A stretch of DNA of 64,000 bases from Buxus sempervirens (Eukaryota > Streptophyta > Magnoliopsida > Buxales > Buxaceae): assembly GCA_947561395.2 (NCBI GenBank), contig OX387182.1:40169949-40233948 (forward strand), written 5' to 3'. Of this stretch, positions 5,122 through 63,398 are shown piece by piece. The stretch's first letter is position 1; every line of letters starts with the position of its first letter. The translations under genes and the position numbers were made by a program. Below the pieces are notes generated by a model. It saw only the letters and a program-made list of their open reading frames with translations, searched no databases and had not been told where the DNA came from.

Positions 5122-7467
5122 TGTAAAACCCTGAATTTTCCTTAAATAATAAATTAAATTAATAAATAATATTATTGAGAGTTATAATTGATGGAAATAT
5201 TTTATTATTGTAGGGGATGATCTAATTAGTGGAGATCCAGAATTAGACGCAGATCTAACCGTCCAATCATGAGATATCAAGGTATGTATTCTGATTGGGC
5301 AGTGTGTATAGGGAAGTTATATGTGAGATACATGGGATCAAGGGGTATATATATCAATTAAAATAACCTAAAACGTATTCGTGTATTCTTGCTTGTATTC
5401 GTCAACAGCCGCAAGCGACAAACGATCGAACGACTGAGGGAGAAGAAGAAGGAGGAAGAAAGGTCTGGTTTTTGGAGTTCTTCGTCGTCCGAGGGTTATA
5501 TCACGTCTGTGAGTGTAGTTGGTTGGAGAAGCACGCACGTTTAAGAGGTAGGTGACACTGTTTACACTCTTTTTTGTATTTAACGTTCGTTTAATCTTCA
5601 AACCATGTTTTTATGATGTAGATATATGTATGATGCATGATATAATCATTATAAGTATTATGGGATTGCTTAGAATAGGAAAAATCACGTTTTGGAAGTG
5701 TTTCTGTTCGTTTTTGGATGACCGCTGACCTCAATTGTACTCGGCGATCATCGGCGATCCTCGGCACTAGTTAAAAATATTAGACCACCGAAGACCGCTG
5801 GAAGACGTACCATCGGCATTCAATTTTGAACTACAGCCGACAACAGACCGCCAAGGCGATCCTGAGTGATCCTAGGCGCTCTGTTTAGATTTTGCAGATT
5901 TTTGAAATTTCAGACCCTGATTCAATTCCAAACTATTTTTAGACAATTTTAATGATTAAATAAGATGTTTTAAGACTAAAATAAATTATCTAATTCCCTG
6001 TTTTACAGAAAAATAAATTGGGAAGATATTTAGGACATTAGTGGCCAAACTTTAAAAGAAATGGAGAAATCTAGTTTTTGGAAAACCTAACTATTATTTG
6101 ATTATCAAAACAACTCTAAATGACACTATAAACCAAAAAACTTCATAAAGAGAATTCAGAACTCAGATGACCGAATATTGAAGTAATTGACAGATTTAAC
6201 CTTTATATGCCGCTAGGCACCAACCCTTACAAAAATATTATATTTTAGGGAATTTTGGAGTCTAGTGGGCATAGCTGGTTATGGATCCATAGTTGTTGCT
6301 AGATAGCTGAGGGATATGTCATTTGGGTTGAGTTACTCCTATATGCGATGCGCTTCCTTTGCAAGTTAGTTTGTCTGGGAAGGTCCTATGTTTGGAGGGA
6401 CACCCCGGTGAGCCGCTGGTGATTCCCTGTACATGTGGATAAGCGACCATCTCCATGTATTGATTCTGGTGCTGCATGCTAGTGGTACATGCCAACTCTG
6501 ATGGGTACGTATGCACTAAGTCAGTGACTACGGCTCTTGTCTAAGCTGCGCTGCATGGGACTTAAGTATCATTAGTAGCATTGCTCCTAAGCCGCACGGT
6601 GGTATAGCAATTGGTGGAGAATCATCTCAAAAGGTTTAATCTATCTTTGTGAGTCCTACAAATGACATTGAAATCACAACACTTGTTATTATTATTGTAT
6701 ACATGTTGGAAGCATGTGATTGAGATATTGGCCGGATGTGTCTGTTTAGTGCATCCTAGCAAAGTATGAATTATGTTATGGATTTTGATATTGGATTCTT
6801 ATAATAGAACTTGCTGAAATTCATCTCTAGAACTGTTTATCATACTGTTTTGTATTTGTGAATGATACGAATGATTATACGAGCCTGCTTAGTCGATATT
6901 GCTTAATCGTGCATGAACTGTTATTTTACTTATATGAACTGTTTAATCATGCATGTGTTACCTACTGGGATATTCGTATCTCACCCTACTTTTATTTCAT
7001 TTTTCAGCTGATACGCGAGAGGGGGATCCTAGTGATTTCCAGGGAGAGATAGCTGAGTATACACCAGAGGATTACTTTTATCCGGATCTTGTTTGAGGTG
7101 GATGATTGATTTAGACTTAGTCATATTTGATAGACTATTTTTCATTTGGATTTGATGTACTGGAGAGATGAGGAGATAGTAACCATTTAATTTTACCAGA
7201 CTTTGATATTAATGATTGATGATCAACTTTAATGTTTATTTGAGGATTTTAGACTACACTTCCGCACATACTTGTTTCCGCACTCTGATAGGATAATAAA
7301 GTGAATGGATTATTTAATTCTATTATTTGGTATATTATTGATGATGTATTTGATATGGGCCAGTAACACCTCGGATTTGGTTGTTGAACTGAATTCGGGT
7401 TGTTACAGTAGCGAACCGGGTTCGGGTCGGGTGCCGGTTTGCACTGACCTGGGTTCGGGGCGTTACA
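5122..7467 (+). mobile_element. Family-B solo LTR, TSD TAGAA
   Basis: The insertion runs from TGTAAAACCC to GGGGCGTTACA (2,346 bp) and is flanked by TAGAA at 5117-5121 and 7468-7472, the signature of retroviral-type integration. No internal region is present. The strand is set by a TATA-like sequence near 5343, a purine-rich leader and a donor GAG|GTAGGT near 5549. A G+C-rich stretch of repeated CGGCGATC-like words occupies 5720-5885. Imperfect inverted repeats occur at 6350-6650, for example ATTGCT...AGCAAT around 6580. Shortly before its end it carries the small exon at 7008-7096. About 90% similar over compared stretches to the reverse copy at 61046-63398. The superfamily cannot be proved from an LTR alone. 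Confidence 0.9.
7008..7096 (+). CDS. Conserved LTR-borne terminal exon (EDYFYP type)
   Basis: After a pyrimidine tract and TTTTCAG at 7001-7007, a frame in phase 2 is open to TGA 7094-7096. It reads DTREGDPSDFQGE then IAEYTPEDYFYPDLV. The same acceptor, phase and C-terminal peptide occur in five other family-B LTRs of this window (28305-28387, 37212-37294, 41027-41103, 44862-44938, 61418-61506). Upstream exons are not identified, so this is the last exon of an inferred transcript. Just upstream is the hairpin GGATATTCGTATCTC. Its function is unknown. Confidence 0.5.
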
Positions 7468-7610
7468 TAGAACGAGAAAAAATAATATCAATTTCTTAAT
7501 TGTTTTGAATGTGCAACCTAGCAAAAAGCATTGTTAACCATACATCACTTACTTTTGCATGTTAGCCTCTCCAATTATCAATTACAGACTCTCACCAATG
7601 TAATAACATC

Positions 7611-10000: not shown

Positions 10001-12318
10001 CTAGATTAAGGCCCTGCATGTAGCTCGGTTGTGTCCTGCCTCATTGCAACGGGAACAGTGGACCGACCGCTTGTTTTGGAATTGAGACTCTATGCGCTTC
10101 TGCCGAGGCCGCCCAAGTCGTCGCTTTGTTTTAGGGGGCAACATGCTTGTTGGTGTTTCAGATGAGTCAGCAAAAGATATCGCATCAATATCTGCAACAT
10201 TAGGTATGTCATGTGTTGGTACACTACGCATCAACTCTACATATATCAGCTCTTGAGTACACTTGTGATAACATTGCTCCACATACTCATATAAAGTTAA
10301 TGATTTCTTCTGCAAAATAGCACATGCATGTTCACAAGGTATGCCGGACATTTGCCATCGCTTGCATGTATACTCACGTCTCAAGATATCCACAGTAATG
10401 TTTCTATCACATGGCCTGACTTCATATTCATGTTCACCACATTGCATTACAGACAACTCCACTCTTCATGCTATATTCTCTTCAATTTTCTTCGCAATGC
10501 GACCACAGATAGGTGTCTTCCATGTGCTGATCTCGTTCTTCTTCCTTACCAACATCTTAGTTAGCTTAACCCTATGTGCATCAATGAATCTTAAGATAGG
10601 ATATTTCCTCTCCTCCAACATCCAAGCATTAAAAGACTCGGCTACATTTGAATATAGCTTATCCCAACGCTTCTTAGGAAACAAGGAATTTGCCCAATGT
10701 TGAGGACCATTTTGCTCCACCCAACCAAACATTTCATGTGGATATGATTGCAATACATCCATCGCCATATCAAAATCCTTTGGAAGCCGAGCATAAGCTA
10801 TATCATCCAATAATCCCAAAGCCACCTTCTTCGCTTTGCCTAGATGAAATTGATTAATGAATTTGTTGAAATTTTCTTTCACATGCCAATAGCAATGAGC
10901 ATGATTTTTAAACCCAAATGTGCTATCCACAGTATTGATAATACTCTGATGCCTATCACTCACAATCATAACATCAGCTCGACCTCCAATTGCATACTTG
11001 ACCCGTTCGAGGAACCATAGCCAATCCTCGTTATTCTCAGCAGTCACAATTGCATAAGCTATCGGGTATATACCTTCATCAGCATCGAGAGCTGTAGTAG
11101 ACAATAACGTTCCTTGATATGGTCCGCTAAGGTGGGTCCCGTCAATGAAAAGTAAAGGTCTACATCCCACTGCAAACCCTCTCAACGAAGAAGAGTATGC
11201 AATGAAAAACTGCTTAAGCTTCCCCTCATCACTCGATGTACACCAAGCTACCGTCCCTAGATTGGACTCCATCAAGCGTTGACACATCCATGGAATAAGT
11301 TTGTACGAGTCCTCCACATTTCCATCCATCTTCCTTTTCACTTTCTCCTTGCTCCTCCAACATTGCTAGTATGTTAAATTCATTGCATGATCATTATGAA
11401 AGTCCTTGGAAATTTGTTGTGGCAAGTAATTTGGTGTCTCTCTCACTGTTTTCTCAATAACACCAGCTATCCATTTCGATCGCAAAATAGGCTTTATTGA
11501 GACTTCATCTTGTGCCGAGTGTTTCTGTGTATTCACAAACTTGTGCACCATCATGCAGTCTGTATGTTTCACACGACCTACGTTAACTTTCCAAGGACAA
11601 TCTTCAACAGAACATCTGGCAGAGATATATTCTCGACTATTTTTCTTGAACACATAATGGAATCTGTTGCCAATGCCATGCTTGTAGACAGCTTGCCTGA
11701 ATTCATCACCACTCCTAAAAACTTGACCATCACCAATAATTTGTGATTGCCACATGCTAGACACAAGTGGTGCCCTATTGTGTTCAATACAACTCCCAAC
11801 AACTGTAGGCTCCCGATCAACAAATGTGACCGCAATTGGTTCAACCAACGGTTCACTACTTATTAAATTAGTCGTCCTAGAAAATAAAATAGTTTAAGTA
11901 TTAAAACACTAGTATGATAACAAACACTACGACTTTGTAAGTCAAATATGTGATAATCACCTTTTGGAAGACTGAACGCTTTGCAATTGCCCTTCATCAT
12001 CAAATAAGTACACATTCGCAGAACGTTCGTTGTGGGTGATAATGTTAAGTAACCCCGCTTGATCAGTAAGTGGAAGTAAAGCACTCTTATCGTACGTAAG
12101 AGAGTACTTCATAGACAAACCTACTGAAGATATCCCAAATTTACTATAGACATCACGTACAAATTCATCGTACTGTGTATTACCACTTATATTCAAACCA
12201 TCTAAACGACCCCCCCCCCCCCCCCCCAATATGATACAGACTTATCTTGCTCTATAACTATCTCTCCACCTATATGCAAGTAGCAAAACAACAACTTCTC
12301 CGGGGGTGGTTGAGCCAT
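10001..12318 (-). pseudogene. MuDR-type Mutator transposase, decayed
   Basis: Reading begins at ATG 12318-12316 (MAQPPPEKLLFCYLHIGGEI), passes a PB1-like N-terminal region (to 11961), a canonical 84-bp intron (11960-11877, GTGATT...TTCTAG, phase kept) and then the MuDR DNA-binding domain (RFHYVFKKNSREYISARC, 11848-11366). Next comes the MULE transposase domain with FIDGTHLSGPYQG and IVSDRHQSI (11341-10466), a SWIM zinc finger (CKRWQMSGIPCEHACAIL) and a CCHC knuckle (CSRCNEAGHNRATC). It would cut and rejoin element ends. Breaks: in-frame TAG 11366-11368, TGA 10466-10468, and a frame change across an 18-C run at 12210-12227. Both stops are one C-to-T step from sense (CAG, CGA). No terminal inverted repeats were found. 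Confidence 0.85.
12210..12227. repeat. 18-bp poly(C) run in the transposase gene
   Basis: On the coding (minus) strand this is an 18-G run inside the glycine codons after SVSYW. Translation from ATG 12318 enters it in one frame and the conserved PB1-like region resumes in another, so 17 or 20 G would restore the frame. Either slippage in the genome or an assembly or sequencing length error fits. Confidence 0.8.
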
Positions 12319-12752: not shown

Positions 12753-15700
12753 TGTAAGCACCTTATTTTTGCACCCCTAGAATTGCTGAAAATGAAAACC
12801 CTAGTAGAAAGTCAAACGCCGAGGGGACAAAAAGTTGACTTTTTGATTGAGTGATATTTGGCCACCTTGCTTTATATCATTGGATAGAGAATCTCGACAC
12901 GATTCCAACGCAACTGAGTTTGCAGGAATCGGAGTCCGGATGAAGGTTCTGCGGGCGGTCAAACTTGGGCGGAGCCAAAAGTTGACTTTTTGCTAAAATC
13001 CTATCTTGCCACCTTGCTTTATATCATTGGATAGAGAATCTCGACACGATTCCAACGCAACTGAGTTTGCAGGAATCGGAGTCGGGATGAAGGTTCTGCG
13101 GGAGGTCAAACTTGAGCGAAGCCAAAAGTTGACTTTCTGCTAAAATCCGATCCAGCCGCCTTACTTTATATCATTGGATAGAGAATCTCGATACGATTCC
13201 AACGCACCTGAGTTTGCAGGAATCGGAGTCCGGATGAAGGTTCTGCAGGCTGTCAAACTTGAGCAAAGCCAAAAGTTGACTTTATGCTAAAATCCGATCC
13301 AGCCGCCTTGCTTTATATCATTGGATAGAGAATCTCGACACGATTCCAACGCAACTGAGTTTGCAGGAATTGGAGTCCGGATGAAGGTTCTGTGGGTGGT
13401 CAAACTTGGGCGAAGCCAAAAGTTGACTTTCTGGTAAAATCCGATCCAGAGGCCTACCCCTAGGTCATGGGATAGAGGGCTCTGATACAATTCTAACGCA
13501 ACTGAGTTTGCCCAGATCGGAGCCCGGATGAAGAAAATATGAGCTGACAAAATTCCCGAGTAGCAAAACCGGCAATCTGCGCGCGTGGCAAAAAGCTGCA
13601 TACGTGGCGAGTTGCGCAGGAAAATATCTCAGGGATCAAATCCGTAAATATCCAAATATACGAAATATCCCAGGGACTAAATCTGTAAATATCCGAGAAT
13701 ATCGGATTGAATTGAAAATTACCAGGGACTAAATCTTAATTTCTAGATTTTTAAAACAAACGAGCGGCCGCATTAATTTTTTGTCATGATTTTGCCGCTC
13801 GCGTGGACGTGGCATGCGTGTATGCACTCAGCGTAAGCTGAGCGCATACCCCTTTCTCCCTTGCCTATAAAAGCTGCGCAAGGATTCATCACAGGGGAGT
13901 CTGCATTTTTTTGGTTGGTTGTTTTGGGGTTCGGCATTTTTCCAGGGTTCGGCATTTTTGTTTGGCAGTTCTCGGGTTCGGGATTTCTGGGTGTCGGCTC
14001 CCTTTGCTCGAGCCTTCTTCCTCATTCCCCCTTGCTCAAAACCCTCTCGGCATACCTCTCCTGGCCTCCACCCCTCCACCCTCTGACAGAAGCCCCTCTG
14101 ACCCCATTCCCTCTCTTCCTCTTCTTCCTCATCAAACTCGGAGGAGATCGCGCCGTTGGTGGGGAGAGGTGTTGCTCCGGTGGCTGCTCACACGCTCCAA
14201 GGAGGCTCTACCCACTTCGGAGAGGTGTTGAAACACCCAGGTAATGTTCCCGATGGCCTCTGGCCCAAAATAAATAAGTTCATTGCTATATTCTCTTTTC
14301 TGTTATTTCGTTTAGTGCTTGTGTGATTCAAAGGGGAGCATGTTCTCCTTGATCTTTGCATCTCTTGTATCCAGATAACCCCCCTGTTCCCTTCGTCATT
14401 ATTCATGTTCTGTTTGGTAGGTTTTTGGATTTGGGTGTGGGCGGGGAGGTCTCGAGTTCGGATGTTAGAGAAGCCTACATTAATTTCTATTTGTGTTTAG
14501 AGGTCTTCTGGGGTTCTAAGGATCCCCAGAAAGTGCTTACAGAGCTTAAAAACCATTAAAAATGGAGTTCGGGCAAAAAAACAGAAAATTAGGGTATATG
14601 CGCTCACTTCATTTTGGGTGCGCTCACTTGGCGCCCACTTCATTTTTGAATGCGCTCAGCTCGCGCTCACTTAGTTTTGGACGCGCTCAGCTCGCACTCA
14701 CTTAGTTTTGGATGCGCTCAGCTCGCGCTCACTTAGTTTTGGATGCGCTCAGCTCGCGCCCACTTCATTTTTTTTGGGTGCGCTCAGCTCGCGCCCACTT
14801 CATTTTGGGTGCGCCCACTTCATTTTGGGTGTGCCCACTTCGTTTTTGGGTGCTTTTTCGCTGTTTTCGGTCCGCCCACTTCGCGCTGACCTCGTGCCTA
14901 GCACCCGGAGGTCGGCGCCTACCCTTTTAAGGCCGAATGGCCTATATTTTTTAAATTCCAAAAATAGCCCTTGGACCTAGTGTATATGATTTTCGTATAT
15001 TTTGGGTATTTTAGGATTTCTGACTGTGGGGTGACATTCTCAAACCGAACCAAATATGCCAATAGGGTTTCCGGGTCACCCAGGAACCCAACATGGGACC
15101 CAAACCACTCGGTTTGACTTGATTTCTAGTGGGCCTTCCAACGGGGCCCATCCAGCCTGAACCATTGAATTGTGCTTAAATAAGATAATCAAAGGAACTG
15201 GGCAGGCCGGACCACTTGAGGCCCACCTAAGCCCTATGTGGGGCATGCATGCTTAAATTAGGTCGTGGTTTGGCCGAGACCAAGGGCAAGGCCTGTCGGG
15301 CCCACTAGGCCCACAACACCAAGCCAGGTTAGGGTTTCAAAACTCCAACCCAGGAAGTCTTGGGCTTTCAAGCCCAAGCCCGGGTAAAGGGCCCCAGGCC
15401 CGAGGCCTGGCCCATTTCGGAAACTTAATCAAGATAAACTTAATGAAACACTTGGCGACAACTGTGGGGCCCACTCAAGGGCCCACAAAGCAATCCCGAC
15501 CCACTTTTGGCATGAAATCCATTTAAATAATCCAACTTAAACCCTAAAGTTAAATCAATTCATTTGAGCCAAAGTCCAAAGGGCCTCTCAGGCTAGACTG
15601 AGGTCCACAAGGGACATGTGGGCTCAACCAAGCCCACCAAGGAATCCGCGGGCCCTCCAACGGGGCCCGCCCAATCAGATCTACATCACTTTAATTAAGA

Positions 15701-18850: not shown

Positions 18851-18879
18851 GCCATTAGCTCTTTCTTCTAATTGAATCT

Positions 18880-37211: not shown

Positions 37212-37294
37212 ATCCTACTGGTGAGCCGCGTATCGGGGCAGAGTGTTAGGGTGATCCGGAATATTTTCCGGAGGATTATTATTATCCTGGCTAG
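37212..37294 (+). pseudogene. LTR-borne terminal exon with one internal stop
   Basis: After TTTTCAG the phase-2 frame reads PTGEPRIGAEC, an in-frame TAG (CAG origin fits), then GDPEYFPEDYYYPG and stop TAG at 37292-37294. Apart from the single stop it keeps the family pattern. Confidence 0.45.
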
Positions 37295-40200: not shown

Positions 40201-40679
40201 GCTAGAAGGTCTCCGATCACTTAGCGAAGTACTTGTTTAGGCCATTAGAGACAAAATTACTTATGAGAATGTTGAAGATAGATTCGGAGATTTTCCTAAG
40301 AGTTTCCAACGTAGGCGTAGAGCAACCCGTTAGGTGATGTTTGAGATACCCAACACCGGGGCTTTTATTTCAGTTCTTTGGATTACACTGTAATTGATTA
40401 AGAGTTATTAAACCCTATTTTCATGATGGAAAGTTTTAAATTATGTTACAAAGATTATTTACTGGCTTTCTTGTGAGTAATTATTGTTCTGGTTGGAACA
40501 CTTGTGTGAGTTGAAGTTCTGGCTGGAACAACTTGTGATGTGTGTACTGAATGCAGAGTTTTATCGGTTATTTATCGGCTTTGGGTTTAGCTTCCCATGG
40601 ATCCTTGTTAAGCTTAGTAATGTGATGGTATGTGTTTATTGGTGTAATTGCATGGCCTTGTGTGTTGCCACGACCAGTG

Positions 40680-40812
40680 TAGAGCAGCCAGATACCCTGA
40701 GTAGGCCTGGTTGTCAGTGCCGATACCCGGAGTAGGCCGACATTGGATGACGATACCTTGAGTAGGCCGTCATTTCAGAGTGTCCGATACCCTGAGTAGG
40801 CCGGACCTGTGT
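40680..40812 (+). repeat. Constant-loop, variable-arm hairpin array in B2
   Basis: Four copies of GATACC(C/T)(T/G)GAGTAGG (40691, 40722, 40752, 40786) are each flanked by short complementary arms: GCCA/TGGT, GTGCC/CGACATT (imperfect), ATGACG/CGTCAT and TGTCCG/CGGACC. The B3 LTR keeps the same layout at 44440-44590 with altered loop bases (GAAACCC) but paired arms. Confidence 0.65.
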
Positions 40813-41026
40813 ACATGGAGGTGTGGAGTGTCTACTTGGCATGTAGATTAACCAATGTAACTATATGCATGACATTGACCTTGTTTGTATTCTTATCGGA
40901 GTACATTGGTTTAAATCGTTGATTATTATCGAAGCATGTCTTATAACTGTGATAACTATTTCTGCATGCATGTGTCACTCGCTGAGATATTCGTATCTCA
41001 TTCCCTCGTTGTTGTTTTGTTTCCAG

Positions 41027-41103
41027 ATATTCGTGGTGAGGTGCCTACGGGGGTAGATTCGGCTGATACATATAGGGAGGAGGATTATTACTACCGTCCT
41101 TAG
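41027..41103 (+). CDS. Conserved LTR-borne terminal exon (EDYYYRP form)
   Basis: After TTTCCAG (41020-41026) the phase-2 frame reads IRGEVPTGVDSADTY then REEDYYYRP and stops at TAG 41101-41103. Upstream lies CTGAGATATTCGTATCTCA, a hairpin shared with the copies at 5122 and 61046. Confidence 0.5.
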
Positions 41104-44100: not shown

Positions 44101-44439
44101 TTATATTTACTTTGGATTGTTTGAAAAACTTGCATTGGTTTTAGTAAATTGTGAGTTATTTTATAGATTTGGATTATTTGTTTTATCTCATAATTGATGT
44201 GATATAAATACAGTTTTGGTTATTGAAATTCGCCTTGAGGGCATGTATTTGAGATTCTCCATGATGGAGTGGATTTGGTCATGATTGGCCCATGATTATA
44301 TGTTGAGTATATTGGTCTATATGTTGGTTTTGTTTTAAGCTATTTCGGTCTAGATTGTCTTGGATCCATTGCTTAAGCTTAAAAATATAATATGTTGACT
44401 TTATTTATGTAATTGCATGGTCATGAGTGTTGCCATGAC

Positions 44440-44590
44440 CGGTGTAGAGCAGCCTCGAAACTCTGAATAGGCCGGTGTTATCAATGCTGAAACCCGAAGT
44501 AGGCCGGCATTGGATGACGAAACCCTGAGTAGGCCGTCATTTTAGTATCTGAAACCTTGAATATGTTGGATTATATACTTGGAGGTGTGG
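44440..44590 (+). repeat. Constant-loop hairpin array in B3
   Basis: Four units with loop words of the GAAACCCTGAGTAGG type and arms such as CAATGC/GCATTG and ATGACG/CGTCAT. It is homologous to 40680-40812 in B2. Confidence 0.6.
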
Positions 44591-44861: not shown

Positions 44862-44938
44862 CCACTCTTGGAGAGGACGCATCTACGAGGGTAGGAATGG
44901 AGGATTTATATAGAGAGGAGAATTACTATCATCCGTAG
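44862..44938 (+). CDS. Conserved LTR-borne terminal exon (ENYYHP form)
   Basis: After a long T tract and CAG (44859-44861) the phase-2 frame reads TLGEDASTRVGMEDLY then REENYYHP and stops at TAG 44936-44938. It is the most divergent of the six copies but keeps frame, length and the acidic-aromatic end. Confidence 0.45.
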
Positions 44939-45215
44939 ACTTAGTAGGTTGTATGGATGAATTCTTGATGGAATTGTATTGATTTTACATTGGGAATATG
45001 TTGAGGGTATCAGACATGTGGATTAGTTGTGTTTCATGATATACTTATGGAATCATTTAGTGTTCCCACGCTTTAGAAGAAATTTAAATTTCCGCAATCT
45101 GATAAATAACTCATGATTATGAATATGAGTTTGGTATGAGAAATTTGAGCCAATACATAATACTCCGTGAGACGTGTTATATCTTTAATGAACAACACAG
45201 ATTCTGAGCGTTACA

Positions 45216-46102: not shown

Positions 46103-47206
46103 TGTAACGCCCCGAACCCGGGTCAGTGCAAACCGGCACCCAACCCGAACCCGGTTCGTTACTGTAACATCCCAAGTCTAGTTCAACAACCAAATCTGAG
46201 GTGTTACCACGAAGCTGGGGTCAGATACAAACTAAGATTCGCAATAATTTTAAAACTAATTAATTTCATCAGAGTTCTGGTGGAAAATAAAACAATTCTT
46301 TATTGAATTTAATCAATTCAATTTACAATAACATTTGTCTAATCAAAATGTGACATTAATACCAATTACAATTCTACCCATCAAATTAAAACCCCATCTT
46401 CGCGATCTCTCCAAGCAACTTGAAAAATAGGGAAAAATGGAGTGAGATTTACATCTCAGCAAGTAGCAGGTGCATGCAATTAGAAACAGTCTAATGTAAG
46501 CAAATAGTCATGAGGTATGCGATTAATCCACGATTAAGCGATGAACTCAAGTTATCGATGGCAATTCCAAATAAATCGATAAAACAGATAATCATGCATA
46601 AATATCAACAATTAGATGTTATCGAGGTAAAACCGACGAATGCGATAAAATACGTGCCATTGCAGGACTCACAAAGATGATAAGTATTTGAGGTGACACT
46701 CGACTAAATGCTATACCACCATGCGGCTTAGGGGCAATGCTACTTAATGATACTCAAGCCCCTTGAAGATCAGCTTAGACAAGAGCCGTAGTCACCGACT
46801 TATTGCGCACGAACCCAACAGAGTTAGCATGTACCACTAGCATGCAGCACCAGAATCAATACATGGAGGTGACCCTCCAGACATAGGACCTTCCAGAGCA
46901 AACTAACTTGCAAAGAAAGAGCGCTCGCACATAGGAGTAACTCAACCCAAACAAAATACCACTTCGCTAACCAACCAAAACTATGGATTCATATACAGAT
47001 AAGCCCACTGACACAAACCATGATAAAACCACATACGGGAGGACACACTACTATAGGAGGCATACACACTTTTACCCGTAAAGGATTACACATCTCTACA
47101 CAGAGGATTACCCATCTCTGCCATAAAAGCTAGTATCAACTCAACCACAGAAGCCGTATCACCCAACCGTAAAAGAAAAGCTAATAACATCATACCACAT
47201 ACCAAT

Positions 47207-49481
47207 TGTAGACACCCCAAATTGCACAAACAATCATCAAAAATCATTATCTCCTGGAAAGCCAGCACAGAATTTGAAGAAAATAAACTTTTACCTGTAT
47301 CCGGATACTCAATCCGGATACAAGTACCCTTTCCCGTATCCGGATACTCATACCGGATACATGTGAGCCTTAGTGTATCCGGTACCATGTACCGGATACC
47401 TTAAGGCCCTTTGTTATCCGGTCTGACATACCGGATACCTTAAGTTTGCTCAAAATTAGGGTTTTCCGAGAGCTTTTCACTTTTACCATCATGTCCCTCA
47501 TTAAATGAGGGGAAATCTCGGAAATAACCTTAGGGTTTAGGTTGGAGGGGTTCTAGACATTAAGTTGTGTCTACCAATGACCTTGGCCCTTGCCTATAAA
47601 TAGGAGCCTCCTCCTTGAGCAAAGGGCACACAACTCTTGTTTTGAATTCTCGCAAAGAAGAACTCCAAGAGAAGAAGAAAACCGCTGTGGAATCGCCTCC
47701 AGCACTCAGGTAAGCCTCAACTTTTCTTTTTATTTTCTGTCTTTACATTCCTAGATCTAGATCTCTTCTTCTACCTTTCTGTAGTGTAAAGCCTTGTTTG
47801 TATGTGTGGAAATCCTTCCCTGGCTCAAAGTATCTCAAGACTCCCCTAGCCGTAAAACGTGAAGGCGGATCTAGGAGAAACGAGACTAGGGATTGACCCT
47901 AGTGTTAGAACCCATGTAGCGTAAGGCTTTTTGATTGATTGTAAACCGTTCCATATTCAAAGTACCCTTGATTATCTTAAAGAGAACAGAGGGAAACGAT
48001 AATGGAACGGAACCCTAGGCTATGCTAGAACCTATTTTATTGAATCTATATGCATGTGTATGGATCTTGCTAGGTTTTTTTCACTTTTGCACACATATCA
48101 CTATTTTGGCGGGGTAGGCTCATATTTGGGGTTTATTGCATTTATTGTGATAAATCTCAAATAAATGGCCTCAATCAATTCTGGAATGCCTTTCGGATGA
48201 TTTTAAAGTATTTGTGTTCATCTTGCACGAATTTCATTTTTTATCAATTTTCGGATTTGGTTTTTACTCAAAAATGGCTTAGCTTGACAGCACCTGTACC
48301 CTTACTTCGGACGTCCGTAACTTCATCATCCGGATGAATTTTGGGGCGATTCCAGAACCATGGGAAAGGTGAGGCTGTCTAGTTTATGTCCACCAAATTT
48401 CATGAATTTCTATCTAGCCGATTTTTGACACCTCTCTGTCGAAGTTGAGTGGACAGTTCAGGTCCAAGTACGGAACTTGTCACTTCGACGGACCGCCATG
48501 TGTTCGTTTTAAGTCCGATTCGAGTGATTTTTATTTCTGAGTACTCCTTTTTGAGTCTATTTTCAAATCCAGTTGGTTTCATAATTTTTGGACTCCATTT
48601 GAATTATTGGTAGCCGATTTACTCAGAACTGCTCATTTGCATTTTTCTGGGTAAATCTGTGATCTTCGGGGCCTGTTCGGGAGACCACCCAAGGCACATC
48701 CGAAGGGATTTTTGTATGAGGCTAGTTTCTCTGGAAAGATGGCCATACAGACTTCAATCACACCAAATTTCGTGGATTTTTATTTCGTGGATTTTTCTAG
48801 ACAATTTTCCAAAGTTGCCCACTTACCACTTTTAAAAATCCCCAACAACAACTTCAAAGGAGCATAACTCCTAGATTTTTCATCGGAATGAAGTGAAATT
48901 TTGCATGAGACTCTTGTTTACCCTAATCTTTCAAATGGATTTGGTTTGGGTCAATTTAGAATTAGATTTGAATGATTTCAAGGCAAATGGTATACATTTT
49001 ACCAAATTTTCCGAATTTGATTTAACTTGGTTTTGAGCAATTTGTGCTTTGATTTCCATCTTTTGAGATATTCCAGAAATGATATTGACATAAGAGAGGA
49101 TCTAAAATCCATTTAGATCTTCATGTGAAAACATCATACATTAATCCTTTTTCAAGGTTTTCTATGATTTTTAGCAAGCTTTCTTACTTTATTTTTTGCA
49201 TGAACATACACTTGGCAACCACTTCGTGTGGATGAATGGGGGTGCCTAACACCTTCCCCCGTTCATAATCTAATCCCCTTACCCATCTCTGGATTTGATT
49301 TTCAAGTAGGGTTATTTTTATCCTAGAATTTGTCTTTTGGCTATTTTTGCATATTTTGAACTCTTTGGTGTCCATTCTCACCCCAAAATCATGAATGGTG
49401 GCGACTCTCCCACTTTTTTGCGTTGAGCCCGTGTGCTGACGGAGGGACGATCACTCCGGTGATTTTTTCCCATGTCTCACA
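47207..49481 (+). mobile_element. Tat-type solo LTR, TSD CCAAT
   Basis: Starts TGTAGACACCCCAAATTGCA, ends CCCATGTCTCACA (2,275 bp); CCAAT at 47202-47206 and 49482-49486. TATAAATA is at 47595-47602, donor CTCAG|GTAAGCC at 47709/47710, the block AGCCGTAAAACGTGAAGG near 47850 and GGTGGCGACTCTCC near 49397. The hairpin cassette is at 47297-47438. It is clearly related to the 5' LTR at 54351 along its length. Confidence 0.92.
47297..47438 (+). repeat. Four tandem 25-nt hairpins, 39-bp period
   Basis: Palindromes start at 47297, 47336, 47375 and 47414, exactly 39 bp apart. Arms are GTATCCGG/CCGGATAC (first arm of unit four begins TTATCCGG). Spacers of 14 nt are not conserved. Position in the LTR (offset about 90) matches the cassette at 54453 (offset about 102), whose arms are GTATCCGAC/GTCGGATAC. 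Confidence 0.9.
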
Positions 49482-51338
49482 CCAATCCATACCCAAATAT
49501 TCAATTCCAAGAGAAAACCATGATTCAATCCTTAAAAATCCAAATAAAGCCTTTTTCGGAATAACATATGCAATTCCCCAATTATATTCAAAATAAAACT
49601 CATGTATCATAATTTCGATAAAAATCAGAGTTTATGCAATTCCAGAAACCAATATTCATATTTAAAGTACAATCCAAAAGTAATTCAAGTCTTGCTTAGA
49701 GTTTTCCTTATTAATCCCTTTATTAGAATCCAATTTCCCATCATAATACTTAAGATAATTTCTATTTAAGTTTTCTGTATTTTTATTCTCCAGCATATCT
49801 TCCAAACCTAAAATAAAGTTTAGGAGATGTTTTTACTCTATAAATTCCAGTAGTATTATTCCTATCAATATCCCATACCATTTAGACCATTTTCATGCAC
49901 AAACCTTACATTATAACCTTCAATTAATTAGTTAATTTTTCCAATTTAATTTTATAAATTTTTATACTTTAATTAGGTCTTTATAAAGTTGGTATAATGA
50001 TTATCATACTAGAAAAATTACTAGGTATTTAATCGTATTATCAAAATCCCAAAATTCTAAATTTTCTAAAGAAAGCGCCTACCTCTGCAGGCTAGGCGGT
50101 CCTGGACGCTCCTAGGCACTTGTGCAAATTTTCAACAGTAATTTCTAGATTTACAAATTTCGGATTTTTAAGCTTTTGCTATATGTTTCTTTGGTCTAAA
50201 TTAATCTACTAACATTCTAAAACATCCCTAAAGCCCTCTAGATTAATTCTTATCAATTAAATACTATCCTACGATTACTTGCATGATCAAAACAAGTTTT
50301 CTTCTTTACTTTAACAAATCCTTCAATAATACCAATCACTAAAATATAAACACTTTGATTCCATGTAAATACAGTTCCGACTAATCCATTCAAACCATAT
50401 TAAATCACAGAAAACGAAATCATGCAGTTCCTCCAGTTTTCAAGGGTTACTACTTGCCTTATACGCTAAAAATCCATCTTCCATTGAAGTTTCTAATTCT
50501 GGACCCAACTTCTGCTCTCAAACGCACTAACCTAGAGTTCTTCAATTCACATCTTCACCGTTCACATTGTAGTTCCATCAGTGAAGATCAAAACCTCCAA
50601 ATTTGAAGTTGATCCACCGTACGGATGTTTCCCGATCGCGATTTGATGGAGATTGGTCGGATAACTCCATTAACAGCCTTCTTCCTTTCTCTCCCTCTTT
50701 TCTCTCATTATAAAACCAACGAAAATTCTCTTTTGTCTCATCTTACTCTCTTATTTATACTTGGCTTTAGAAGTCCTAAACCAACCCTAATAGGTTCCTT
50801 TAATTTGGGCTAACCCAACCAAGGTTTAATTAAAGTCTAACTCCTTCTAATTAATTCCTACTTTTTCTCCACCTTCTATTTTTCAACTTAAACATTATTA
50901 ATCGAATCTCCTATTATCTAAACACTCCTTACAACCTAATTTCGTGCATAATAATTACTTAAACTATAAATATCATCTAAAACCTTATTATGTTACTTTT
51001 TCTCCAAATTAAGACTTGAAATCTCCTAATTACCCTTTTTCCTCATTTCGGCTTTTATTAATTCCTTTTAATTCCTAACCTGTCTAAATAAATTACTTTC
51101 TTCTATTTCTAGTCCTAGTTATTATTTAATGATCTATTTATTAATTACCCTTTTCTGAAAATTACCAAAATACACTTTTAGGCTAATTTCCTTAAAATTC
51201 TTTCTTTATTTACAATTTATGACTTATTTGATTATTTATCTTTTAAATCTTCACTTTTTATTTTAACTACGACTTAAACTCATATTTTCTTTTATTTATT
51301 ATTTATTTATTTATTATGTGAAAATTCGGGGTTTTACA

Positions 51339-54350: not shown

Positions 54351-54452
54351 TGTAGACACCCCAAATTGCATAGTAAAAATGATGAATAATTGGCAAAAAT
54401 CATTCTTTCCTTTGAAACCAGCACAAAATTTGAGAAATAAGCATTTTTTCTT

Positions 54453-54594
54453 GTATCCGACAACTCAGGTCGGATACAAGCATATCCTTTCATATCCCAC
54501 AGAAGTTGTCGGATATAAGCAGGCATTAATGTATCCGACGACATATGTCGGATACATATATGTGCTCGTGTATCCGACTTGATATGTCGGATAC
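54453..54594 (+). repeat. Four tandem 25-nt hairpins, 39-bp period
   Basis: Palindromes start at 54453, 54492, 54531 and 54570. Arms are GTATCCGAC/GTCGGATAC, with unit two altered to ATATCCCAC/GTCGGATAT, which keeps the outermost pairs. The cassette lies about 165 bp upstream of the TATA box. Confidence 0.92.
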
Positions 54595-54760
54595 AAGATT
54601 TTTGCTCAAAATTAGGGTTTTCCAAGAGTTTTCACTTTTTACCATCATATCCTTCATTAAAGGAGTGGAAATCTCGGAAATAGCCTTAGGGTTAAGATTG
54701 GTGGGCTCTAGACATCATTTTGTATCTAGCATCATGCAAACCCTAACCCTAGCCTTTGCC

Positions 54761-54768
54761 TATAAATA
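54761..54768 (+). promoter_or_regulatory. TATA box of the Tat/Ogre-like 5' LTR
   Basis: TATAAATA preceded by GCCTTTGCC; the same TATAAATAG in the same context is present in the solo LTRs at 47595 and 34498. A donor (CAG|GTAAGC) follows about 100 bp later in all three. Confidence 0.75.
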
Positions 54769-56742
54769 GAAGGCTTCTCCTTAAGCAAATGGCCAATAAG
54801 TTGGAGATTGAAGAGCTTCGAGTGAAGAAGGGAACCGCTGCCGCATTGCTTCCAGACACCCAGGTAAGCCTAAACCCCTCTTTATTTTTCTGTCTTTACA
54901 TTCTAGAGTTAGTTCTTTTCTTCTACCCTTCTGTAGAATAAGGCCTACTCTATGTGTATGTAAACCCTTCCTCTACTCAAAGTACCTCAAGTCTCCCCCT
55001 AGCCGTAAAACGTGAAGGTGGGATCTTGGGGAAATGAGACTGAGGATTGATCCTTAGTGTTAGAACCTTGTTGAAAAGCCTTTTGAATCTATGAAAACCG
55101 TTTCATACGCAAAGTACCCCAAGATTATCTAGAAGAACCGTAAAACGGGGAGAGGGAACTAAGGGAAACGAGAATGGAACGGAACCCTAGGTCTTTTTAG
55201 AACCCAAATTTGATTGATATGAATGCCATATGTGGTTATGTTGTGATTAAAGAAATGATTTGTACACATGCACATATTGCACTTATTTTGTCGAATTTGG
55301 CTTGTATTTTGGACCTATTGCCGTCATTGTGGTAGATCTCAAATAAATAGCCCCAAGCAATTCTAGGATGTTCATTATCAATTTCAATCAAGTTTATTTC
55401 AAATCTAAAAGACCTCTAGGTCTAACCTCTCGGTTTTGGGCATTTTTTTTTCAACTTTAGGGTTTTTGGCATATTCTTTCCAATCGGAGGGAATGGTGAG
55501 CCAACCTTGTGCCCTATTTATTCCTAGAGGTTCATCAACTTTTTTTTAAATGATTTTGATTCATATTGCACGGATCACACACACCTTATCACTGTTTTGA
55601 GTTGATTTTCTTTAAAAAGGCTAAAACTGGACAGCAGCTGTACCCCAACTTCGGACACTCGTAACTTCATCGTCCGGATGAATTTTGGAGGGATTCCAAA
55701 TCCATGGGAAAGGTGAGGCTATCTAGTTTATGCCTGCAAAATTTCGTTAATTTTTATGAAGTAAATGTTTTACACCTCTCAGTCAAAATTGATAGGTCAG
55801 TTAAGGTATGATTGTAGAACTTGTCACTTCGACTAAGCGCCAGGTGTTCGTTTTAAGTCCGATTCAAGTGATTTTTGTTTCTATGTTTTCCATCGGAAGT
55901 CTAATTTCAAATCCAGTTGGTTTCATAATTTTTTAACTCCATTTGTTTCGTGGGTAACAGATTTACTCAGAACTGCTCAATAGCACTTTTCTGGGTTAAT
56001 CTGTGATCCTCGGGGCCTGTTCGAGAGGTCACCCATGCCAAATTTCATGGATTTATATGGAGCCAATGTTTCTAAATGAATTTCCAAAGTTGCCTGCTTG
56101 TTACTTTTACTGATTTCCAACAGCAACTTTCAAAGGAGCATAACTCCTAGGATTTTAACTGGATTTGATTGAAAATTTGCATGAGTCTTCTATTTATCAT
56201 AATCTTTCAAATGGATTTGGTTTGATCAAATTTAAATTAGATTTGAATGTTTTCAAGACAAATGGCTCTAGCTTTTACCGAATTTTCCGGATTTGTCTCA
56301 ATTTGGTTTTATTCAAGTTTTGCTTTGATTTCCATCTAATGGTGATATCCCAGAAGTTACAATGACATAAAAGAGGATCTGGAATTCATTCGGATCTTTC
56401 ATGTGAAAGTATCATACATTTGTTTAATCCTTTTTCAAGGTTTTTGATTATTTTAGCAAGCCTTCGTTATTTTGAATATGAACAACACTTGGCAACCATC
56501 GTGTGTGGGTGAGTGGGGGTGCCTAACACCTTCCCCCATTCATAATCTAATCCCCTTACCCATCTCTGGATTTGATTTTCAAGTAGAGTTATTTTTACTC
56601 TAGTATTTACCTTTTTGCTCTTTTTGATGATTTTTGGTGTCCATTCACGCCTTTAAAATTGGATGGTGGCGACTCTCCCATTTTCGCTGAGCCCGTGTGT
56701 TGACGGAGGGGAATCATCTCGGTGATTTTTCCATGTCTCACA

Positions 56743-58518: not shown

Positions 58519-58660
58519 TTAATCGACAACTCAGGTCGGTTAAACATCATTCTATTCTTATCCGACATAAATCATCGGCAAAAAGGATATATGCATGTAT
58601 CTGATCATTTATATCGGATACAATAAGACATAGCCTTAGCCGACAGGTTATGTCGGATAC
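58519..58660 (+). repeat. Second four-hairpin cassette in the leader, 39-bp period
   Basis: Units start at 58519, 58558, 58597 and 58636. Unit one has arms TTAATCGAC/GTCGGTTAA and keeps the loop AACTCAG of the first LTR hairpin (54453), but both outer arm ends have changed together from GTATCC/GGATAC. Unit four ends GTCGGATAC. It is a diverged copy of the LTR cassette with period and number preserved. Confidence 0.85.
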
Positions 58661-58951
58661 ATTCAAAAGATGTACAAATTGGTTTTTCATCCCAAATTTT
58701 AAGAATAAAATACCTAAAACACTGTGGATAATTCTTAGGCACCCCAAAGAGAATATAAAATGTTTCAAAAAATAAAAAAATAAACAAAAATCTTTTAGGA
58801 TTTAACCTAATTTTGAAACTCAAATCTACCCTTTTCACAAGCTTATGGAAGATACATAAAAAGGGAACCAAGGTGTCATATTTCTTGATACCAACTTACC
58901 TCAAACATGTTTCAATCAAACTTTTGAACTTGAAAACTGAGAAAATTCAGC

Positions 58952-59965
58952 AAATTCCAAGAACCTTTGATTGGTTATTTTTTCCAATCAAATCAAAACA
59001 TTTGTGGGACACTTGGAAGCCCTAGAATATTCCAAGAAACCTTTGGTTGGTTATTTTTTCCAATCAAATCAAAACATTTGTGGGACACTTGGAAGCCCTA
59101 GAATATTCCAAAATCAAAACATTTGTGGGACACTTGGAAGCCCTAGAATATTCCAAGAAACCTTTGGTTGGTTATTTTTTCCAATCAAATCAAAACATTT
59201 GTGGGACACTTGGAAGCCCTAGAATATTCCAAAATCAAAACATTTGTGGGACACTTGGAAGCCCTAGAATATTCCAAGAAACCTTCGATTGGTTATTTTT
59301 TCCAATCAAATCAAAAAATTTGTGGGACACTTGGAAGCCCTAGAATATTCCAAGAAACCTTCGATTGGTTATTTTTTCCAATCAAATCAAAACATTTGTG
59401 GGACACTTAGAAGCCCTAGAATATTCCAAGAAACCTTCGATTGGTTATTTTTTCCAATCAAATCAAAACATTTGTGCGACACTTGGAAGCCCTAGAATCT
59501 TCCAAGAAACCTTTGGTTGGTTATTTTTTCCAATCAAATCAAAACATTTGTGGGACACTTGGAAGCCCTAGAATATTCCAAGAAACCTTCGATTGGTTAT
59601 TTTTTCCAATCAAATCAAAACATTTGTGGGACACTTGGAAGCCCTAGAATATTCCAAGAAACCTTTGGTTAGTTATTTTTTCTAATCAAATCAAAACATT
59701 TTTGGACACTTGGAAGCCCTAGAATACTCCAAGAAACCTTTGGTTGGTTATTTTTTCCAATCAAATCAAAACATTTGTGGGACACTTGGAAGCCCTAAAA
59801 TCTTCCAAGAAACCTTTGATTGGTTATTTTTTCCAATCAAATCAAAACATTTGTGGGACACTTGGAAACCCTAGAATATTCCAAAAAACCTTTGGTTGGT
59901 TATTTTTTCCAATCAAATCAAAACATTTGTGGGACACTTGGAAGCCCTAGAATATTCCAACAATC
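58952..59965 (+). repeat. 76-bp minisatellite upstream of gag
   Basis: Twelve full units (anchors GGTTATTTTTTCC at 58971, 59047, 59168, 59289, 59365, 59441, 59517, 59593, 59669, 59744, 59820, 59896) plus two 45-bp partial units, at about 59112-59157 and 59233-59278. Each partial unit makes a 121-bp higher-order step, so one step was copied. Because 76 is not a multiple of three, all frames repeat every 228 bp, producing several overlapping artefact frames. Units are nearly identical, so expansion is recent. Confidence 0.95.
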
Positions 59966-60170
59966 AAAAATAAAAAAAAACAAAAAAAATGTTTCAAAAT
60001 AAATAAAAAAAAACAAATAAATCCGGACTTTTGTTCACCTAACCTACTTATCTACATTTATAGGGGTGTGACTCAGGTTAAATGGAAGCTGACATGTTTC
60101 TATGCTTTTCCTTCTCCAGGTACACTTACTTACAATCATTGCTCCCATAACCAGATCAAAAGCCCGCACC

Positions 60171-61045
60171 ATGAATACTGAAGAGAATCAAGCTCAAGCC
60201 ACCGTACCCGTTCAGGACTTTGCTCAGCTGCAAGAGCAAGTGGCTGGACTAGCCAAGATGCTGGGAAACTTGCTGGCGGCTCAGGCCCAACAGGCCCAGG
60301 CCCAAAACCAAGCGTCAACTTCCAATCAAGCACCACCACCTCAAGCCTACATTCCACCTCCTGCTCAACCCATGCCTAAACCCATTTCTGAGCCAGTCCC
60401 TGAACCTATTCTGATTAGGGAAAACACTGTGGAGTATGAGAAGGAAATGGAAAAAGAAAAAGCCAGGGAGGAGATGGAAAAGAAACTCCTGCACAAGATA
60501 GAGAGGATCCAAGAAGAACTTGAGGAAGTAAAGGGGGGAAACAACTATGGAGGTACCACCTTTGACGACCTGTGCATATACCCGGATGCATGCCTACCGG
60601 CCAAGTTCAAGTGCCCTGACTTCGACAAATATGATGGCACGGGTTGCCCAATGAGCCACTTGAAACTATATTGTGGGGCCCTATGCCAATTTGGCCGGGA
60701 TGACGGCATTCTAATCCAACTCTTCCAGAGGAGTTTGATAGGGTTGGCTCTAAGGTGGTTTGCCACCGTGGACTATGGTAGGATCAGAAGATGGAAGGAC
60801 TTGGCCGACGCCTTCTTGGACCAGTATAAATTTAACTCGGAGATCCTGCCAGACCGGTACGACATGATGAGGATGAGTAAGGAAAAGGAGGAGTCTGTAA
60901 GGCAGTATGCCAAGAGATGGAGAGAGGCCGCCTCCCAGGTCAGGCCACCGATGTTGGAACCTGAGATGATCTCAACCTTTGTAAGCACACTGGGCCAACC
61001 CTTCTATAATCATCTGGTGGGTCAGATTACCACCAATTTTGCAGT
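60171..61045 (+). pseudogene. gag of the Tat/Ogre-like element, N-terminal part (interrupted)
   Basis: The frame from ATG 60171 (MNTEENQAQ) follows an acceptor CTTCTCCAG (60119) that could join the LTR donor at 54863; the frame is open from 60102, but this ATG suits a spliced message. Order: a Gln/Pro-rich N terminus with a coiled-coil part (60430-60530, Glu/Lys-rich), then the retrotransposon gag (PF03732-like) core: FKCPDFDKYDGTGCPMSHL, LIQLFQRSLIGLALRWF, RRWKDLADAFLDQYKFNSEI, VRQYAKRWREAASQVRPPM. At 61045 a B solo LTR enters; the frame would run into LTR sequence and stop near 61122. The coding sequence resumes in frame at 63404. Confidence 0.88.
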
Positions 61046-63398
61046 TGTAACGCCCCGAACCCGGATCAGTGCAAACCGGCACCCGACCCGAACCCGGTTC
61101 GCTACTGTAACAACCCGAATTTAGTTCAACAACCAAATCCGAGGTGTTACTGGCCCATATCAATTACAACATCAATAACATACCAGACCAAAGAAGTAAA
61201 TCCAATCCATATATTAAACTATCAGAGTGCGGAAACAAGTATGTGCAGAAGTGTAGATCAAAATCCTCAAACAAGCATAAAGCTTGACCATCAGTCAGTA
61301 ATATCAAAGTCTGGTAGAATGAACTGGTTACTAACTCTCTCTTGTCTCTCTCATACATCAAATCCAATAAATGATAATAACCAATTAAAAATGCTAAGTC
61401 TATAACATCAATCCACCTCAGACAAGGTCTGGATAATAATAATCCTCCGGCGAATACTCGGCTATCTCTCCCTGGAAGTCTAAGAGATCCCCCTCTCGCG
61501 TATCAGCTGAAAAATGAAATAGAAGTAGGGTGAGATACGAATATCTCAGTAGGTAACACATGCATGATTAAACAGTTAATATAAGCAAAGTAGCATTTCA
61601 TGCACGATTAAGCAATATCGATAAATCAGGCTCGCATAATCATTTATACCATTCATGAACACAAAACAGTTTGATAACAGTTCTAGAAATGATTTTCAGC
61701 AAGTTTTAATATAAGAACTCAATAGCCAAATCAATAGCATAATCCAAGTATTGCCAGGATGTACTAAGCAGTCACATCCAACCAATATCCCAATCACATG
61801 CATCCCGCACGTGCACAATAGTAATCATATCAAGTGTTATGTTTTCAGTGTCATTGTAGGACTCACAAAGTTAGATAAACCTTTTGAGATGATTCTCAAC
61901 CAATTGCTATACCACCGTGCGACTTAGGAGCGATGCTACTAATGATACTCAAGCCCCATGCAGCGCAGCTTAGACAAGAGCCGTAGTCACCGACTTATTG
62001 CACACGTACCCATCAAAGTTGGCATGTACCACCAGCATGCAGCACCAGAATCAATACATGGAGGTGGTTGCTTATCCACATGTACAGGGAATCACCAGCG
62101 GCTCACCGGGGTGTCCCTCCAGACATAGGACCTTCCCAGACAAACTAACTTGCAAAGGAAGCGCGTCGCATATAGGAGTAACTCAACCCAAATGACATAT
62201 CCCTCAGCTATCTAGCTACGACTATGGATCCATAACCAGCTATGCCCACTAGACTCCAAAATTCCCTAAAGTATCATATTTCTATAAGGGTTGGTGCCTA
62301 GTGGCATATAATGGTTATATCTGTACATTCATTTCATTATTCTGTCATTCGGATTCTGAATTCTCTTTATAATGTCTTATGATTTATAATGTCATTTAGA
62401 AGTGTTTAGATAATCAAAGGGTAGTTAGGCTTTTCCAAAATCACATTTCTCATATACCTTCAAAACTTGGCAACTAAAGTCCTAAATATCTCCCTAATTT
62501 GTTTTTCTGTAAAACAGGGATTTAGGTAGTTTATTTTGGTCTTAAAGTACCTTAATTAATCATTAAAATTGTCTAAAAATGGTTTAGAATTGATTTAGGT
62601 TCGAAATTATGAAAAATTGGAAATTCTGCTGAGAGCGCCTGGGATCGCTCAGGATCGCTCCGGGCGGTCATCAGTCGGCGGTAGTGCAATTTCGAGTGCC
62701 CACGGTCCGTCGTCCCGCGGTCCACGGCGTCCTCAAAACTTTAACCAGCGCCTAAGATCGCCGATGAGCGCCTCGCACAGTCGAGGTCGGCGGTCTCACC
62801 AAATCGAACAGAAACAGTTCTAAATCACGATTTTTCTCGTCTAAACTCATTCTAATGTATTTATAACATGCTTAGATAACTAAATACAACTTTACATATC
62901 ATAGAAACATGCGTTTGGGATTAAACAGAGATAAATCCGAATTTAAAACCAAAACGGTGTCACCTACCTCTTGAACGAAGGTTCCTCTTCCTCACTTCTC
63001 TCAACCACGCTTCTCTATCACCCAGCAACACTCTGGAAGATGAAGAACTCCAAAAACCCAAGCTTTTCTTCTTCCCCTTCTTCTTCTTCTCCTTCGGTCG
63101 CTTGTCGCTTGCAGCTGATCAATACGAGCGAGAATACACGCGTATAAATTTAGGTTATTAAACTAATACTTATACTCACTTATCCCATGTGTCTCACCTA
63201 TACCAAATTCCATACACACGCCCAATCAGAATACATACCTTGATATCTCATGATCGGACGGTCAGATCTGCATCTAATTCTGGATCTCCGCTAAGTTGAT
63301 CACCCCCTACAATATTAAAATGTTTCTATCAATCAAAACTCTGGGTAATATTATTTACTAATTTAATTTATTATTTAAGGAAAATTCGGGGTTTTACA
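61046..63398 (-). mobile_element. Family-B solo LTR (reverse) inside gag, TSD GCAGT
   Basis: Plus-strand limits TGTAACGCCCCGAACC and CGGGGTTTTACA (2,353 bp); GCAGT at 61041-61045 and 63399-63403. In reverse: leader with donor AAGAG|GTAGGT near 62966, CGGCGATC/GAGCGATCC-type words (62800-62640), inverted repeats around 61900-62200, the hairpin GAGATATTCGTATCTC (61545-61530) and the terminal exon 61506-61418. Closest relative here is 5122-7467. Confidence 0.93.
61418..61506 (-). CDS. Conserved LTR-borne terminal exon (EDYYYP type)
   Basis: After TTTTTCAG the phase-2 frame reads DTREGDLLDFQGE then IAEYSPEDYYYPDLV and stops at TGA (61418-61420). It differs from the copy at 7008-7096 by a few codons, several of them silent or conservative (TAC/TAT, CCG/CCA, TTT/TAT). 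Confidence 0.5.

Follow-up and report, generated by a model that had tools for sequence, protein, structure and literature searches.

We analysed a 64,000-nucleotide stretch of the Buxus sempervirens genome (the window; assembly GCA_947561395.2, contig OX387182.1, positions 40,169,949 to 40,233,948 of the forward strand), in which copies of retrotransposon long terminal repeats (LTRs) carry a short terminal reading frame behind a predicted intron. Because the frame keeps one phase in all 57 copies scored and shows a low ratio of non-synonymous to synonymous differences (pN/pS) in three families relative to flanking sequence, we regard it as very likely to be an exon that codes, at least in the first families. 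We give even odds to its being the final coding exon of the gag-pol that the element itself carries. With somewhat less confidence, we propose that these Tekay-like chromoviruses may make two forms of Pol by alternative splicing: one with a plain C-terminus, translated from the genomic RNA, and one with an LTR-encoded, tyrosine-rich tail on the chromodomain, translated from a spliced mRNA that lacks the polypurine tract (PPT) and U3. One clade would have lost the tail through a stop codon ahead of the splice donor.

A short frame near the end of the LTRs

A first-pass annotation of the window had reported six such frames. All six lie where it placed them, each behind a pyrimidine tract and CAG with the frame beginning two bases on, and its peptide sequences are present, although it lists them in an order other than that of the places. 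It had also set the frames inside LTRs, and copies A, B, D and F are indeed solo LTRs with perfect 5-bp target-site duplications (TSDs), 2.25–2.69 kb long, starting TGTAAAACCC and ending GTTACA (A, D, F) or GCTACA (B). Copy A (5122–7467, forward strand, TSD TAGAA) has its terminal exon at 7008–7096, with the frame running from 7010 to ...YTPEDYFYPDLV and a stop. Copy F (61046–63398, reverse strand, TSD ACTGC), inserted in another element's gag frame, has the exon at 61418–61506, ending ...YSPEDYYYPDLV and a stop, and the A and F LTRs are 83% alike over their full length. The exon of copy B (27927–30612, reverse strand, TSD TTTTC) lies at 28305–28387 and ends ...YRPEDYFYPG, and that of copy D (39136–41388, forward strand, TSD TGTTT) lies at 41027–41103 and ends ...YREEDYYYRP, each before a stop. 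For copies C and E, both on the forward strand, the right LTR ends alone are seen (~37601 and 45215), without target duplication; their exons lie at 37212–37294 (...YFPEDYYYPG, stop) and 44862–44938 (...YREENYYHP, stop). A TAG in copy C is, as had been claimed, the one internal stop among the window copies. A 17-base motif for EDY[YF]YP has seven matches in the window at up to two mismatches, against 0.28 expected, six of them being the listed frames, and none of 100 shuffles reached seven.

Within the window, the evidence for coding is modest, and copies from the source genome added much. The first-pass annotation had observed that third positions vary while the peptide is kept; in three pairs of window copies, 30 of 63 differences fall at third positions (p=0.013; 31 of 68 when D and E are aligned as nucleotides and not as codons). 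Between A and F, the 17.5 synonymous sites of the frame carry 9.2 changes and its 66.5 other sites 5.8; 9 of 848 windows score as high, the frame itself included. With the motif set aside and families mixed, a count of third positions gave 35 of 90, which is not significant (p=0.16).

In the 676,531,615-base source genome there are 2,957 exact matches to GAGGAYTAYTWYTAYCC, and a single match to a reversed-pattern control. From contig 1 we took the first 30 motif places consecutively; phase 2 came out for 27 of them when the acceptor was picked automatically, and 26 passed a stricter acceptor filter (L030, L033, L037 and L038 were dropped). The 57 scored rows comprise the window copies, the contig 1 loci and both LTRs of elements passing the filter. 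The common phase claimed from six copies extends to all 57, with an internal stop ahead of the motif in 2. The distance from acceptor to motif is 53, 56, 59, 62, 65 or 68, length classes that differ by multiples of three, and the frame is 24–29 codons long.

Outside the motif, pN/pS was 0.30 in family F1 (90% bootstrap interval 0.10–0.72; 17 distinct copies), 0.39 in F2 (0.23–0.72; 11 copies) and 0.45 in F3 (0.24–0.91; 7 copies), and aligned flank controls gave 0.66–1.39 over four families and 0.68–1.38 in F1–F3. F1 and F2 carry the coding case. The first-pass annotation had held that the frame is kept by selection and had proposed comparing exon with flank across LTR copies; the ratios of F1–F3 support selection and that of F4 does not. 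A first pN/pS run was discarded as its control windows were unaligned; it had given 0.52 for F2, with one misassigned row, and 0.17 for F4, from seven close relatives. When five LTR lineages were scanned, the frame was among the stop-free windows of lowest pN/pS (76 of 942 windows being stop-free); windows with stops go lower, and a second low stop-free window lies at LTR positions 1399–1423.

The end of pol as a candidate partner

Motif places in the genome pair at 6.2–7.9 kb, mostly near 7.15 kb, and seven pairs (P1–P6 among them) were read in pieces. The 5' LTR end was seen in six of the seven and is followed by TGGTATCAGAGC, a primer-binding site (PBS); three of the six match it exactly, two have one difference and one has two. 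An ungapped comparison of LTR tails matched 575–607 of 620 positions in five pairs and was poor in P2 and P6 (357 and 498). The repeats have TG...CA ends, 5-bp TSDs and, in the full copies, a paired arrangement with a PBS. Gag-pol of Ty3/gypsy type lies in one frame, long in P1 and P4. A profile search of P1, run in pieces, found Retrotrans_gag, RVT_1, Integrase_H2C2 and SH3_Tf2-1 above cut-off, rve just under it, and Chromo (19.6 bits, E 8.7e-4) under its cut-off of 25.1. The elements look like Tekay-like chromoviruses, a name that we base on LTR length and on the pol end at the LTR border. The Tekay element Bongo of beet shares long LTRs, a tRNA-Met PBS and a 5-bp TSD, its LTRs measuring 2.6–3.0 kb (one with a deletion excepted) against ~2.35 kb here; in contrast to our elements, neither splicing nor an LTR exon is reported in the accessible part of its description (PMC3605345).

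Gag-pol ends PEPQGKFRGRNF..., with the stop 11 nt ahead of the LTR in P2, P5 and P6 and an unspliced frame extending 7 codons into the 3' LTR in P1 and P4. This is not the unspliced Pol extension of the CRM (Beetle) and Reina (Bingo) chromoviruses, whose gag-pol, in the parts of the sources available to us, runs into the 3' LTR (PMC3605345; PMC3059260). The likeness would be a C-terminal end of Pol encoded by the 3' LTR; the frame is continuous there, whereas here the border of the LTR ends it (the unspliced frame enters by 7 codons at most) and a predicted intron separates it from the LTR exon, ~2 kb downstream.

The last pol codons offer a splice donor. They read CAA GGT AAA TTT, or CAA G|GTAAATTT, in all six elements whose pol end was read, and the donor word also occurs inside the seventh, P3, where the scan met a false LTR start. 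The donor CAA G|GTAAAT stands 40–41 nt ahead of the LTR; scored with a plant donor matrix, it reaches 9.1 and lies in phase 1 in 3 of 3 elements scanned, the phase that the LTR exon requires. For a wider survey of pol ends we used the 17-mer AAATTTCGAGGACGAAA, which has 999 genome matches, and sampled 40 of ~100 listed places, all on contig 1 (the first 20 in order, with P1 and P4 skipped, and a further 20 scattered along the remainder), of which 39 gave sufficient context. A donor scoring at least 7 falls within the last 15 nt in 18 of the 39, against 0, 0 and 6 of 39 in three upstream windows, and one scoring at least 6 in 20, against 1, 0 and 6. The donor words (GTAAAT, GTAAAA, GTATGT, GTATGC, GTATGG, GTATAA and GTGAAA) and their distances to the 17-mer vary, which favours retention of a donor as such over that of a particular word. 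The pol frame was not established for L079, L112 and L114. Genome-wide, CAAGGTAAATTTCGAGG, with the GGT codon of the donor, occurs 432 times and its counterpart with a synonymous glycine codon that destroys the GT 17 times, counts that come without a neutral yardstick; TGAGGTAAATTTCGAGG occurs 292 times.

The same two parts recur in a diverged family that was located by position, without use of the motif. Its pol ends ...GESQ-G|GTAAAT (L093), and the LTR behind this QG-type end (L120) has an acceptor and RLTSGVKDRVGDRGKGKAIGYREEDYYWP before a stop in the right phase, the exon ending ...GYREEDYYWP. That the frame is the end of a captured host gene, as the first-pass annotation suggested, is very improbable: several diverged families of Tekay-like elements share the exon, and it suits the pol-end donor in phase. 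The peptide itself has no protein match, but the database seems to lack plants, a gag query being likewise without a match. Searches of the protein database, PDB, plasmids and genome contigs found no relatives, and an Rfam search gave no match at the gathering threshold.

From these features we infer the splice step, the translation of the tail and its role as follows. The donor at the end of pol would be joined to the acceptor of the 3' LTR in part of the transcripts, the predicted A-type junction being ...CCACAAG joined to CTGATACGCG.... Splicing would remove the PPT and U3, and the plain end Q-GKFRGRNF... would be replaced, behind the chromodomain, by an acidic, tyrosine-rich tail ending approximately YxPEDYYYP. 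Unspliced RNA would yield the plain Pol end and serve as genome; spliced RNA, lacking the PPT and U3, would be unfit as a genome and hence mRNA only, so that tailed Pol would come from a dedicated message. The copy of the exon in the 5' LTR would be a by-product of LTR duplication, and the same letters would act as coding exon, splice site and replication repeat. In A-type elements a weaker second acceptor in U3 could give another tail (approximately GDPELDADLTV). The corresponding candidate exon of copy A (5214–5281, forward strand) is a 68-nt segment from an acceptor-like TTGTAG to a donor-like CAAG|GTATGT, with a possible alternative tail GDDLISGDPELDADLTVQS before a stop. A single mRNA joining pol, this U3 segment and the terminal exon was rejected, as the segment contains an in-frame TGA and its 68 nt break the phase.

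Several observations weigh against gag-pol as the partner of the LTR exon. In the D-clade (L067, L068, L071) a TGA stands directly ahead of the donor GT, and the LTR exon is intact despite it, reading TRGEAITGVDPAE[AT]YREEDYYYLP or IRGEVPTGVDPADTYREEDYYYRP. Across the 20 sampled ends that have a donor, the codon ahead of it, read as phase 1, is CAA in 8 and a stop (TGA or TAA) in 9, the rest being TCA, AGA or GAA; in L081 pol stops already 17 nt ahead of the donor. No donor scoring at least 6 was found in 19 of the 39 pol ends, which include close relatives and hence are not independent. Stretches were also taken from behind pol ends, at distances that had to be guessed: 4 of the 11 contained the exon and 7 did not, misses that are inconclusive because LTR lengths differ. 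Which pol ends belong to families F2 and F3 is uncertain; for F2, none of 40 listed places lay near enough, by eye, to form an element pair. The F3 interval overlaps its flank controls, and F4, which comprises D-clade copies with window copies D and E, shows no detectable constraint (pN/pS 0.84, 0.43–1.76; 9 copies). Finally, a seventh LTR in the window, absent from the first-pass annotation (copy G, 46103–51338, reverse strand, TSD AACAA), has kept a hairpin and the acceptor and lost the peptide.

With a stop codon directly ahead of the donor, splicing in the D-clade would fall in the 3' untranslated region (UTR) and Pol would lack the tail; the tail may be decaying there, or may serve another partner. 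Three further exons, L116–L118, found through pol position behind L082, L083 and L106, read TRGEAITGVDPAE[AT]YREEDYYYLP before a stop. L116 and L117 differ by four synonymous changes and one other, and against window copy D the three give pS 0.24–0.36 and pN 0.13–0.15. L067, L068 and L071 have the LTR exon type of window copy D, yet a different U3; their LTRs look chimeric, which has also been described for the first exons of Revolver.

The retention of this sequence in the D-clade, where pol stops ahead of the donor, together with the F4 ratio and the low ratios of stop-bearing windows elsewhere in the LTR, is what an untranslated frame would predict, one kept as an RNA signal (a splice enhancer or 3' UTR element) whose codon pattern is a by-product. 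We nonetheless regard this as improbable, since the length classes lie multiples of three apart, the phase is constant in 57 of 57 rows, synonymous changes dominate in three families and the diverged family retains YREEDYYWP.

Other candidate upstream exons

A strong donor lies inside the LTR of five window copies, namely A, B, C, D and F, 1371–1701 nt upstream of the acceptor. Among the sites scanned it ranks first in copies B, C and D and second in copies A and F; a scan of copy E found no comparable donor. In copy A the estimated leader exon 1 spans 5378–5547 (forward strand; TATA at LTR +224), the donor GAG|GTAGGT follows position 5547, and the predicted intron covers 5548–7007, with a hairpin GATATTCGTATC and a pyrimidine tract ahead of CAG. 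The last base before the donor is 62968 in F (reverse strand, GAG|GTAGGT), 30089 in B (reverse strand, CAG|GTAAGT), 35840 in C (forward strand, CAG|GTAAGT) and 39612 in D (forward strand, AAG|GTGAGT). Further exon 1 figures for B and D were left unused, the automatic TATA pick having taken early TATA-like words. In A, D and F the pyrimidine tract is preceded by a hairpin around TATTCGTA, which follows a branch-like stretch; C, E and G have variants of this hairpin, and B lacks it.

One reading offered by the first-pass annotation was that the LTRs carry a small intron-containing gene. A gene lying wholly within the LTR is unsupported, because exon 1 has no conserved frame among the window copies compared and, in A and F, lacks an ATG altogether (3.7 were expected in each). 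Exon 1 frames are unlike between A and F, and D has a stop one codon ahead of the junction. An LTR-only gene of exon 1 and exon 2 was therefore dropped as the leading interpretation, and the element's own pol end appears to be a better partner for the LTR exon. Two variants were also rejected: a U3 middle exon starting with an ATG (MRYQ) in A and F, since the ATG is TTG or GTG in P1, P2, P4 and P5, and a non-AUG start within exon 2, since no near-cognate codon is common to the copies compared.

A broader form of the same idea follows Revolver, a single gene of 139 amino acids in three exons with TATA at 221 and cap site at 261 (PMC2851119; PMC3203089, as far as these sources were accessible). 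Transcription from the LTR TATA would join exon 1 to the terminal exon, with a non-AUG start or an unrecognised middle exon. The plan is the same: Revolver and the large retrotransposon derivative (LARD) LTRs of Triticeae likewise have TATA ~220 and the transcription start ~260 bases in, and Revolver has a variable exon 1, conserved later exons and a relation to solo LTRs, in the parts of the sources seen. It would also fit the second stop-free window, at LTR positions 1399–1423, and the rank and spacing of the exon 1 donor in the five copies that have one. What stands against it is the exon 1 evidence above and the lack of an in-frame start codon common to the exon 2 copies compared; in contrast to Revolver, no 139-residue three-exon frame and no middle exon are found here, a comparison made with the published description and not with the protein sequence. 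We consider this the least likely of the splicing schemes, and infer that Revolver may itself be a solo LTR of the kind described here.

Without exon 1 as coding partner, an internal upstream exon is to be expected, and a donor within gag or pol would be a candidate besides the pol end. The LTR exon would then end a short subgenomic mRNA encoding Gag, or Gag-protease, with the LTR tail, in the manner of Arabidopsis EVADE, which reportedly makes a spliced subgenomic RNA. A-type and D-clade gag-pol have five phase-1 GT sites in common, with scores of 5.4–9.4; by our own labels, one of these lies in the zinc knuckle and another ahead of the protease. Such a donor would also serve the D-clade. All five, however, are GGT glycine codons in conserved protein, so their sharing is expected from the protein itself, and the D-clade scores are 5.6–7.4. 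We judge this scheme unlikely, though less so than an untranslated frame. Ogre and EVADE are plant LTR elements with splicing (PMC12786077; PMC6317226), and as here splicing of a transcript subset alters the protein made; a coding exon in the LTR is not described in the portions of those sources available. A full-text search of the literature on introns and frames in plant LTRs, which reached few subscription journals, found no report of the arrangement.

Exon 1, the leader, may be spliced directly onto gag, since an acceptor-like site coincides with the gag start or closely precedes it: TTTTGCAG|ATGGC in all three A-type elements read and TT[TA]CAG|GAAATCATGG in all three D-clade elements read. 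Sequence resembling a 3' splice site was noted at or just ahead of the gag ATG in L039, L046, L052, L073, L074 and L075.

The LTR introns contain arrays of short units in D (40660–40830), E (44430–44590), B (28430–28660, reverse strand) and C (36500–36830). In D and E a near-constant stretch (ATACCCTGAGTAGGC / AAACCCTGAGTAGGC) separates varying arms that seem, by eye, to be complementary. RNA structure as a general feature of these introns was rejected, with z of 0.03 in D, -0.81 in E, -1.55 in C, 0.60 in A and -2.80 in B, exceptional in B alone. In five copies a word near TCCGCACTCTGATA recurs ~200–275 nt downstream of where the LTR exon starts (7277–7290, 37486–37499, 41228–41241 and 45091–45104, forward strand; 61220–61233, reverse strand); at up to three mismatches the window has 9 matches against 3.45 expected.

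Neighbouring elements and implications

Other mobile elements share the window. Copy G is split by a solo LTR of another family (47207–49481, TGTAGACACC...GTCTCACA, TSD CCAAT); a second LTR of that nested family lies at 54351–56742 and is followed by GGCGACTCTGCTAGGGAC, which we take to be a Tat/Ogre-like primer site. The gag frame at 60093–63998 (PF03732) is split by solo LTR F at 61046–63398. On the reverse strand, a MuDR-type transposase in three frame pieces (DBD_Tnp_Mut, MULE, SWIM) lies at 10004–11893 and a MULE transposase domain, perhaps FAR1-like, at 26145–27095; a Transposase_32 frame (putative plant transposon protein) lies on the forward strand at 2102–3091. Tandem arrays occupy 58827–60039 (units of ~76 bases), 12830–13564 (~147) and 4212–4939 (~155–165).

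If the proposed Pol tail is real, the end of the integrase concerned with targeting may exist in two spliced forms. Plant LTRs are usually taken as non-coding; here a coding exon would be present in thousands of LTR copies. Solo LTRs would then bring a ready 3' splice site and a short protein tail to host transcripts, and gene annotation may score such LTR exons as genes. Revolver-like 'transposon genes' would gain a simple reading, as LTRs with introns.

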